From assembly GCF_012516435.1 (NCBI RefSeq), contig NZ_CP051216.1, forward strand, positions 2,126,001-2,190,000: a DNA stretch of 64,000 bases, given 5' to 3'. Below, one piece after another: positions 3,434 through 36,752 of this stretch (the first letter of the stretch is position 1; every line of letters begins with the position of its first letter). The translations under genes were made by a program, and so were the position numbers. Under the pieces are notes generated by a model that saw nothing but the letters and a program-made list of their open reading frames with translations, had not been told where the DNA came from and ran no database searches. The DNA comes from Pseudodesulfovibrio sp. zrk46. Lineage in GTDB: Bacteria; Desulfobacterota; Desulfovibrionia; Desulfovibrionales; Desulfovibrionaceae.

Positions 3434-3567
3434 GCTGTCGATTAATACGTAAGCAGCGGTACAAGTCAAGTTCGTCCCAGCTGCGCCTGAGGTCTACGCA
3501 ATGGCCTCATCGGTTCCGCTATTAGCAAGAAAACTCATTTAACATAGGGTACCCCGGTAGGGTATTT

Positions 3568-3652
3568 GTTGGTCAAGCCAAACCCGTCGTGAGACGGAGA
3601 CGGAAAGCCACGGGTCTCTTTATGGAGATAGCCGGGTTGCACTCCCTCCCTT
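3568..3652 (+). promoter_or_regulatory. Cyclic-di-GMP-I (GEMM) riboswitch aptamer
   Basis: The core matches the GEMM-I consensus in order: CAAACC (3579-3584), a CGTC-GTGA-GACG stem with GNRA tetraloop, GACGGAAAGCC, then ACGGGTCTC, a short loop and GAGATAGCCGGGTTGC. The GTCTC/GAGAT helix and the GCCGGGTT receptor side are as in the family. The base just before CAAACC is C, where Vc2 has the ligand-contacting G, and GACGGAAAGCC replaces the usual GACGCAAAGCC; ligand choice may therefore differ. Downstream, GGTTTGG (3733-3739) can pair with CCAAACC (3770-3776) just ahead of the Shine-Dalgarno at 3788, a possible expression platform (inference). It precedes the 79-residue membrane protein at 3798. 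Confidence 0.87.
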
Positions 3653-28222: not shown

Positions 28223-28896
28223 AAGAGTGCTCCTTAAAAAAGCAAAAATAATCTGTGGCAATGTGTGGCTTTCGCTCACATGCCAGCCTCTTGTACAATA
28301 ATCTCTAACCTGCCGAATTCCATCAACAAACGCTCACGAGCTATAATGTAACGGGGTAAGCCCGCGATACGCCGGTGGTCACGACTGGGAGTGGTTACTT
28401 ACATAATATGGGGTGGGTGTACAAGCTTTTTTTTGTGATTTTTGGCGGCTGGGGTGGGTTTGCGGGGAGGGGATTCTATTTTGGGGGAAGAAGAAGCAGG
28501 AAATGTTGCGGCTTATCAGCCGCGATTATTTGGGGGAATCGCCTTTGGCGATTGAAAGGCAATAAGAGGAAAGGAGGTCGCCTTCGGCTCCTATTTATTG
28601 AAATGATCCCTGCCGGGGGCGTCCTGCGCGGACGGCGGTTCTTTCTTGGCTGAGCCGCCCCAAGAAAGAACCAAAGAAACGCGGCTTTTCTAGCTTGGCC
28701 GCCTCGTGATCCCTCGCGAAGAATCTGATCCAAATAGAATGCCTTGAATTGTGGGGCGCGACGTTCGTCGCTGCCGAATGCCGTGCGTTATGGGCGGCAT
28801 TCGATTTGGTCAGCTTCTAGGGCTTAGGCTCAAGGGCTGGAGTAGGCTTTGTTCGGGAAGAGTGAGGCGCAGAGTTTTGATAGGCAGTTGACCATG
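28223..28896. other. Gene-free stretch upstream of rplM, hairpin-rich
   Basis: This holds the rplM leader and promoter region (minus strand, candidate -10 TACATTATAG near 28345), then a G-rich segment 28430-28500 and two perfect small hairpins: GCGGCT-TATC-AGCCGC (~28509) and ATCGCC-TTT-GGCGAT (~28538). The rest is repeat C copy 1. I see no credible coding frame among the short ones on either strand. Confidence 0.6.
28576..28840 (+). repeat. Structured intergenic repeat C, copy 1
   Basis: It is homologous over its length to 36327-36585 in direct orientation. Shared blocks include GGTCGCCTTCGGCTCC, GCGGACGGCGGTTC, TTCTAGCTTGGCCGCCTCGT, AATCTGATCCAAATAGAATG and GGCTTAGGCTCAAGGGCTGG. Three foldings are visible. 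Stem 1 is GGTTCTTTCTTGG (28637-28649) with CCAAGAAAGAACC (28660-28672). The long stem is 28720-28743 with 28796-28818. An apical hairpin GCGACG-TT-CGTCGC (28758-28771) lies inside it. It may be a structured RNA or a palindromic mobile element; no ORF fills it. Confidence 0.85.
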
Positions 28897-35323: not shown

Positions 35324-36253
35324 ATGACCGTTGATATCATCACTTTTCTCGCTGCTGCGCTGCTCCTTTGGTTCGGCGCCAATTGGATTGTCGCCTCTGC
35401 TGCGCTCATCGCCCGCAAGTTCAATGTTTCCGAACTTGTCATCGGCTTGACTATCGTGGCTTTGGGGACATCTGCACCTGAATTCCTCGTCACCATCAAT
35501 GCAGCCATGCGCGGCCACAACGACATCTCTTTGTCCAATGTGGTCGGTTCCAATATCTTCAATCTTGGCTTTATCCTTGGGCTCATGGCCATGATCAAGC
35601 CGCTGGTTTCCAATAAGACCATCGTGTACCGCGACGGTCTGCTGCTGTTCCTGACCACCGCAGGTATCCTGCTGGTGTCCATGACCGGCGAGTTGGGTCA
35701 CGTCTTCGGTGGCGTGCTCATGCTGATGCTCATTTCCTATCTCGTCTATCTCGGCATGAAGCGCGAGAACGTGGGCGATGAAGAGCTGGAAGAGTTGGAA
35801 GGTCAGGAGGCCAACTGGAAGCATGGATTTGTTTTGGTGGCGGGCTTTGCCGCCATCTCCGCTGGTGGGCATCTGATGGTTTCCGCTGCGACGTCTATCG
35901 CAACCGCTCTCGGCGTGTCTTCGTGGGTCATCGGTGTGACCATTGTTGCCGCGGGTACCAGCCTGCCCGAGCTCGTCACTTGTCTGGCCGCGTCAATCAA
36001 AGGCAAAAACGAGATGCTGCTTGGTAACCTGATCGGGTCCGACTTCTTCAACTTTGCCGGGGTGCTGGGGCTGACTTGTTTGCTCAAGCCGTTGCCGGTT
36101 TCCGACGAGGCCTCCTCTGGTCTCTACGTGCTTGTCGGCATGGTCGGGTTGGTGTTGATTTTGTTGCGTACGGGCTGGCGTGTTTCCCGTTGGGAAGGCG
36201 CGTTGCTCGTTGGCATCAACCTTATTCGATGGGTTCGAGATTTCTCCGCCTAG
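35324..36253 (+). CDS. CaCA-family sodium/calcium exchanger (YrbG type)
   Basis: It has 309 residues and about ten helices. The two inverted alpha repeats are visible: GTSAPEFLVTINAAMRGHND with SNVVGSNIFNLGFILG, and AAGTSLPELVTCLAASIKGK with GNLIGSDFFNFAGVLG; the Glu in PE and the Asn/Asp in GSN/GSD are the ion ligands. An acidic cytoplasmic loop (DEELEELEGQEAN) lies between the halves. It exports Ca2+ (or another cation) in exchange for Na+ or H+. It is probably co-transcribed with the PP-loop gene; a strong terminator follows. Confidence 0.93.
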   Translation: MTVDIITFLAAALLLWFGANWIVASAALIARKFNVSELVIGLTIVALGTSAPEFLVTINAAMRGHNDISLSNVVGSNIFNLGFILGLMAMIKPLVSNKTIVYRDGLLLFLTTAGILLVSMTGELGHVFGGVLMLMLISYLVYLGMKRENVGDEELEELEGQEANWKHGFVLVAGFAAISAGGHLMVSAATSIATALGVSSWVIGVTIVAAGTSLPELVTCLAASIKGKNEMLLGNLIGSDFFNFAGVLGLTCLLKPLPVSDEASSGLYVLVGMVGLVLILLRTGWRVSRWEGALLVGINLIRWVRDFSA

Positions 36254-36276: not shown

Positions 36277-36311
36277 AAAAGGGCCGTTCCTGAGGGAACG
36301 GCCCTTTTTTT
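36277..36311 (+). terminator. Terminator after the antiporter gene
   Basis: AAAAGGGCCGTTCC-TGAG-GGAACGGCCCTTTTTTT is a perfect stem with U-tract, 24 bases after the stop. Confidence 0.93.
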
Positions 36312-36326
36312 GAAGAAGTTTAAGGT

Positions 36327-36585
36327 GGTCGCCTTCGGCTCCGATTTCTTGGAGCATTGCTGCCGGGTGGCGTCCTTCGCGGACGGCGGTTCGTTTTTGG
36401 CTAGGCCCCAAAAAGGAACCAAAAAGCTCCTTTTCTAGCTTGGCCGCCTCGTGAGCTGTCGCTAAGAATCTGATCCAAATAGAATGCCTTGATGAGCGCT
36501 TAGCGAACTAGTTCGCTGTGGAAAGGCTGTTGTATTCGGCGGCATTCGATTTGGTCAGCTTCTAAGGCTTAGGCTCAAGGGCTGG
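36327..36585 (+). repeat. Structured intergenic repeat C, copy 2
   Basis: This is the direct-orientation homologue of 28576-28840. Stem 1 is GGTTCGTTTTTGG (36388-36400) with CCAAAAAGGAACC (36408-36420); relative to copy 1 one C-G pair has become T-A on both sides. The long stem (36465-36488 with 36541-36563) is unchanged. The apical hairpin is AGCGAAC-TA-GTTCGCT (36502-36517), unrelated in sequence to that of copy 1 but again perfectly paired. It starts 16 bases after a terminator and is not obviously part of any transcript of the antiporter. Confidence 0.85.
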
Positions 36586-36649
36586 TGAAGGTCTTCGTTT
36601 GTTGGAATAATATGAAGCCCATATAGCCTGAGGCTGTCGTACACCATCG

Positions 36650-36752
36650 AGCGTCAGCGAGCGACAAAGAGTTTGGGAGGGTGTCGGGAACCCTTTGCAA
36701 AGGGTTCCTGACCCGTCGGAGACGCACGCCCGGCGAGGGCCCGTCGGAGGCA
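36650..36752 (-). repeat. Intergenic repeat A, copy 2 (behind rnr stop)
   Basis: Read on the minus strand it starts GATGCCTCCGACGG directly after the rnr stop (36755), then GTCTCCGACGG, GGAACCCTTTGCAAAGGGTTCC (36687-36708, perfect hairpin) and a TCGCTCGCTGACGCTCGA tail. This is the same layout and gene-relative position as copy 1 behind malY. Confidence 0.75.

Follow-up and report, generated by a model that had tools for sequence, protein, structure and literature searches.

It has been stated that class II purine-motif intrastrand triplexes are impossible in RNA and are formed in DNA (Holder et al., 2015; PMC4666352). The ITxF definition admits loops of 1–6 bases, while Hoyne et al. permitted loops of up to 10 (PMC4666352). 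The PIT repeats of the TM_ECO group are reported to occupy, on either replichore of Escherichia coli K-12, the half nearer to the origin, a bias that the authors did not see in other bacteria or in further strains of E. coli (PMC4666352, which builds on Hoyne et al.). When E. coli TM_ECO copies were inspected at their published coordinates, three out of four lay between convergent genes. REP sequences, a second kind of intergenic repeat, are palindromes of 20–40 bases that occur in hundreds of copies, and BIMEs join two REP types.

In this study, we examined a repeat that is present twice in a 64,000-nucleotide stretch of the Pseudodesulfovibrio sp. zrk46 chromosome (NZ_CP051216.1, positions 2,126,001 to 2,190,000; referred to as the window, and the genome, G000, as the window genome). 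Like TM_ECO, it contains a class II pyrimidine–purine–purine block, is intergenic, occurs in a few tens of copies and is found in part as inverted pairs that join two types. Unlike TM_ECO, a G+C-rich sequence of about 36 bases that occupies gaps of roughly 100–235 bases on its own, the Pseudodesulfovibrio block is A-rich and joined to a 100–160 base palindrome with exchangeable arms, and the origin-half location extends over eight species, whereas that of TM_ECO was not seen in other E. coli strains. With REP and BIME sequences the repeat shares a palindrome with a stem defect, the intergenic position behind genes and the arrangement of copies, either alone or paired, two types then converging at a constant spacing; it differs from them in its size (about 340 bases as opposed to 20–40), in its tens rather than hundreds of copies, in the lack of conserved arm sequence and in that several carriers need no RAYT. 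Since the RAYT test fails in these carriers and both size and arm conservation differ, we have not filed the element as a REP. The MITE-like repeats RU-1, RU-2 and RU-3 (PMC2759123) are likewise non-coding, dispersed and strongly folding, measure 100–400 bases and have no internal transposase; in contrast to them, a terminal inverted repeat or target duplication was not identified here, and the unit is a chain of hairpins and not one terminal palindrome. Finally, the attC sites of integrons also combine a constant foot with arms that vary in sequence and length while the structure is conserved, but attC boxes and a cassette array are missing here, and no associated integrase was found. We consider it the best reading, with a probability of roughly 60 %, that we are dealing with a palindromic, non-autonomous DNA repeat of the REP/BIME/PIT kind, which lies between genes and is specific to Pseudodesulfovibrio.

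Results

The two copies, which an earlier note on this DNA had placed at 28576 and 36327, are both larger than given there and extend over approximately 28508–28846 (copy 1) and 36324–36591 (copy 2; these and all following coordinates are those of the window, plus strand). Both are built, from left to right, of a small hairpin H1 (GGAGGTCGCCTTCGGCTCC at 28573–28591 in copy 1 and GGTGGTCGCCTTCGGCTCC at 36324–36342 in copy 2), then the side stem M2 and finally M3, a long interrupted palindrome. In copy 1, H1 is preceded by a further hairpin, H0 (GCGGCTTATCAGCCGC, 28508–28523), which is also found at the left of other copies (L011, L012 and L022) and of the orthologous copy in the sister species G001, whereas copy 2 begins directly behind the intrinsic terminator (36277–36308) of an upstream Na/Ca-exchanger-like gene (35324–36253). 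Module M3 covers 28691–28846 in copy 1 (covariance-model match 81.3 bits, E 1.2e-15) and 36436–36591 in copy 2 (79.9 bits, E 2.7e-15). Its hairpin foot is formed in copy 1 by AGAATCTGATCC (28720–28731), in which the T after CTGA is unpaired, and GGTCAGCTTCTA (28808–28819), and lies in copy 2 at 36465–36476 and 36553–36564.

The long inner stem P3 (CCAAATAGAATGCC / GGCATTCGATTTGG) follows on the foot, its 5' arm at 28730–28743 pairing with the 3' arm at 28796–28809 in copy 1, and 36475–36488 with 36541–36554 in copy 2. As had been claimed, this stem is fixed between the two copies, being identical in sequence and paired at 13 of its 14 positions; in other copies it is exchanged wholesale. The apical hairpins within it, GCGACGTTCGTCGC (GCGACG-TT-CGTCGC, 28758–28771) and AGCGAACTAGTTCGCT (arms AGCGAACT and AGTTCGCT, 36502–36517), are indeed unlike in sequence and nevertheless fully paired, and the other copies keep a paired apical hairpin as well, the loss of which would, according to the earlier note, have spoken against a structured element. 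The side stem (copy 1, GGTTCTTTCTTGG/CCAAGAAAGAACC; copy 2, GGTTCGTTTTTGG/CCAAAAAGGAACC) shows the double change from C-G to T-A that had been noticed before, together with one G.G mismatch. When folded as single-stranded DNA, both copies far exceed shuffled sequence (z −3.9 and −4.9).

Module M2 consists of a pyrimidine block, a purine block and a third purine block that is the mirror image of the second, which is the layout of a class II purine-motif intrastrand triplex. In copy 1 (28637–28679) the side-stem hairpin is followed by the third block AAAGAAA, and in copy 2 (36388–36426) the stem with its G.G mismatch is followed by AAAAAG. The third block covaries with the stem: an internal G is present in both the purine arm and the third block in 13 distinct copies, absent from both in 44 and discordant in two, so that 57 of 59 distinct copies are concordant. 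Copy 2 does not illustrate this rule well, its third block being a poor mirror of the stem. At 10 bases (copy 1) and 7 bases (copy 2), the first loop of M2 exceeds the strict ITxF limit and is within that of Hoyne et al.; M2 thus has the PIT layout of a potential triplex without the short loop. M2 is split between its pyrimidine arm and its loop by some 50 additional bases (ATCTCTGCTGTCCTCATCCGTAAGCCTCGAAGACTCGGCAACGGCTGAAGGC) in five copies (L008, L010, L015, L020 and L024).

The window genome's own chromosome (4.08 Mb) contains 45 DNA matches to the repeat. A covariance model of M3, trained on 31 divergent copies after removal of their variable apical portion, finds 36 full-length matches there, and therefore the repeat in the window is not a chance structure. 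Genome searches of the kind that the earlier note had recommended have thus extended the family well beyond two copies, with members in 22 further species; in all, 23 of 36 Pseudodesulfovibrio species, including the window genome, carry the repeat, and copy numbers among the species range from 0 to 40. In G021, many contigs end in near-identical copies, which suggests that the repeat was recently amplified there. An exact-pattern scan of 84,980 genomes, one per species, revealed real members only in Pseudodesulfovibrio, a group of sulfate reducers. Pattern matches in other taxa were nearly all without a partner arm; three loci that retained a loose partner match (L128, L152 and L217) bore no resemblance to the element and were judged to be due to chance. 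Plasmid and phage collections contained no match to the repeat. Searches of Rfam at gathering and at permissive thresholds returned nothing credible, in keeping with the earlier note, to which no named family with this layout was known.

Across the family, M3 measures about 155 bases and the foot alone is conserved. Over 39 sequence clusters there is hardly any change in the foot, AGAATCTGAT(C) / (G)TCAGCTTCT, which contains the unpaired T and a tolerated mismatch, and the helices on either side of it are variable. The foot can be written AGAATCTGAT..GTCAGCTTCT, with outer and inner arms that are interchangeable, and the inner segment varies in length from 23 to 111 bases. It had been proposed from the two window copies that pairing is kept while sequence is not, and this holds both across 31 divergent copies and against an arm-swap control. 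Watson–Crick pairs account for 315 of 468 inner-stem positions within copies as against a mean of 205 and a maximum of 241 once arms from different copies are combined. On alignment A2, covariation scores 0.268, compared with 0.058–0.126 for six versions with slid partners, and 80 cells are changed on both sides while cells changed on one side are nearly absent, figures that are without a kinship model and in which cells count sequences and not events.

How this covariation may have arisen is suggested by the way in which the parts of the repeat are combined. In the window genome, M2 type, inner-arm type and apical hairpin type assort independently; all six combinations of the two M2 types with the three arm types are present, and the apical hairpin GCGAC-TT-GTCGC is found in two arm types. 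Furthermore, the copy at the rplM locus of G001 resembles window copy 1 in its flanks and in M2, which can be aligned, but its whole inner arm is different, being of a kind that is present in other copies of the window genome. Given this independent assortment and the replaced inner arm at G001 rplM, a large part of the covariation has the appearance of module exchange and not of stepwise compensation, and such exchange would give covariation without G-U intermediates. The simplest inference from these sequences is that palindromic modules are exchanged between copies, possibly by homologous recombination or template switching. The earlier conclusion that structure is under selection therefore stands only in so far as pairing is conserved; selection itself is unproven, since the swapping of whole modules between copies yields covariation without stepwise compensation. 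To the right of the element in L011 and L015 the sequence continues into a further long hairpin (GCGATAAAAGCCGAACGGCGACTCTGA...), which looks like another mosaic module.

By a crude gene call, copies in the window genome are nearly all intergenic, and in most of 29 loci the upstream (left) gene points at the element, most copies following gene terminators. They occur singly, in tandem arrays (G005, with spacings of about 300 and 365 bp) and in convergent pairs, of which there are five in the window genome at 216–218 bp and, in G001, nine at 243–253 bp and one at 647. In the window genome, one partner of every convergent pair has arm type II and the other has arm type III. The orientation relative to the replication fork is weakly biased (68 of 109 single copies, p 0.012), for which gene direction may be the cause. 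At L060 (3402–5026; G000 738901–740525) two genes of low G+C content lie between inverted copies of the element, one encoding a protein of the IrrE/M78-peptidase kind that also matches HTH weakly and the other a 197-aa protein without a Pfam match; this pair is possibly toxin–antitoxin or defence cargo. At L002 (461–1402; G000 1101235–1102176) a Sel1-repeat gene, also of low G+C content, lies between two direct copies.

The copies are unevenly distributed over the chromosome. When 112 loci in eight species were assigned to successive fifths of the distance from origin to terminus, the counts were 37, 46, 22, 7 and 0, and the probability of finding none in the last fifth by chance is about 1e-11 if the loci are independent. 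Taken genome by genome, the bias reaches significance in the three largest sets and is borderline in G006, and each of the remaining genomes gives a weak value by itself. Origins were placed by GC skew of sampled stretches in G000 (about 1.3–1.47 Mb), G001 (about 0.57 Mb) and G050 (about 2.7 Mb), in each case beside the weaker DnaA-like gene, and by that same gene as marker in the other five genomes; the lengths of G002 and G051 were rounded in this count. Two DnaA-like genes are present per genome (in G000 at 1315707 and 3870562, and likewise in eight related genomes), and in the three skew-sampled genomes it is the weaker DnaA-profile match that corresponds to the gene at the skew minimum, the likely origin.

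An unrelated 20-base repeat, CGAGCGAAGCGAGCGACAAA, served as a control. Its 50 matches in the window genome (at most 2 mismatches; reversed control 0) are confined to the same arc, 0.155–2.134 Mb (155318–2133828), and the origin bias is thus not specific to the element. It is probably the chromosome, and not the element itself, that underlies the confinement to the origin half. Terminator supply was considered as a cause of the bias and rejected, as terminators in the terminus half are almost as frequent; the G+C content of the window genome is lower in that half. Since the confinement is common to two unrelated repeats, why the terminus half is without intergenic repeats becomes a testable question. 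The 20-base repeat is itself intergenic and lies several times about 40–95 bases from the right end of M3, with a degenerate copy near 36640–36670 of the window.

Discussion

In our preferred reading, that of a non-autonomous intergenic DNA repeat, the unit would fold when its strand is single, as during replication or repair, and the constant foot could then serve as the recognition point for a hairpin-acting enzyme or for homologous recombination between copies. Exchange between copies, together with template switching within the palindrome, would keep the arms complementary, and the repeat would persist because gene ends tolerate its presence; no cellular function is inferred. Of the two identities that had been offered for the element before, the palindromic mobile element is nearer to the evidence than the structured RNA, but no mobilising enzyme was found and no empty site could be located to the exact base; in the alignment of copies, neither terminal inverted repeats nor a target duplication are evident, and the borders vary, the left one included. 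Some copies are old and not freshly moved, because both window copies share their position with G001.

The alternative that survives best, though we regard it as rather unlikely, is that the repeat is a chromosome-organising site. Either through a protein that binds its constant foot or through its own folded DNA, it would mark the origin-proximal half topologically or as a domain. Sites such as matS and those of Noc and SlmA are chromosome markers by their distribution. The absence of all 112 loci from the outermost fifth, the nearly invariant foot and the position that both window copies share with G001 would be consistent with such a role. However, a function as origin-domain mark is weakened by the control repeat, whose 50 matches occupy the same arc, and the poorer G+C content of the terminus half, the range from 0 to 40 copies among species and the position of copies at rplM and rnr, where among 30 loci fetched for each gene G001 alone besides the window genome has the repeat, all argue against it. 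A more far-reaching proposal, which we put forward as a speculation that is unlikely to be correct, is that a protein which recognises hairpins binds or cleaves at the M3 foot, exchanges palindromic arms among the sites and either serves as a mark of the origin half or is restricted to it; this would amount to a new single-strand DNA recombination or chromosome-domain system.

Mobilisation as a classical REP by a REP-associated tyrosine transposase (RAYT/TnpA-REP) appears quite improbable. It would account for the palindrome with its unpaired T, for the position between genes and behind them and for the convergent pairs with fixed spacing, and one Y1 transposase is encoded in the window genome. 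However, G001, G003, G004 and G006 carry elements and have no Y1_Tnp match, the M3 motif is absent within about 1.5 kb of the Y1_Tnp loci that were fetched, and the short conserved palindrome of 20–40 bases is not found; the Y1 transposase was therefore rejected as a partner. The absence of the motif from these loci also means that, as far as tested, the element is not an IS end; decay from a known IS end would, according to the earlier note, have spoken against a structured element.

We return to the reading as a DNA repeat when the pairing is considered from the side of RNA. That a small RNA, a riboswitch-like RNA or a ribozyme is transcribed from the element would agree with the strong conserved folding and with the covariation, but we consider it very unlikely. 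In an RNA, G-U pairs are expected to outnumber A-C mismatches on the transcribed strand; here there are 29 G-T pairs as against 25 A-C mismatches, and thus no excess of wobble pairs on either strand, and one-sided changes are nearly missing. The folding is found on both strands, the minus strand folding about as well as the plus strand, the arms are swapped as a whole, and Rfam gives no match. Together with the position of most copies behind terminators and the third-strand covariation of M2, which is of the triplex type that is restricted to DNA (PMC4666352), these findings do not support an RNA.

Least probable of all is an attC-like single-strand recombination site with cargo genes inserted between sites, as the fixed foot with arms of variable sequence and length and the copy pairs that flank accessory genes (the HTH/IrrE-type peptidase gene with its neighbour, and the Sel1-repeat gene) are outweighed by a foot that reads AGAATCTGATC / GTCAGCTTCT in nearly all copies and is without RYYYAAC and GTTRRRY boxes, by the absence of an adjoining cassette gene from most copies and by the lack of an associated integrase in a search without profiles.

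As a DNA repeat, the element joins in one unit an intrastrand-triplex motif and a REP-like palindrome, kinds that have otherwise been described apart, and adds to them hairpin arms that can be exchanged. For the discovery of RNAs it calls for caution, as module exchange in DNA can produce strong covariation. Elsewhere in the window, a c-di-GMP-I riboswitch aptamer is present at 3567–3644 (57.5 bits).
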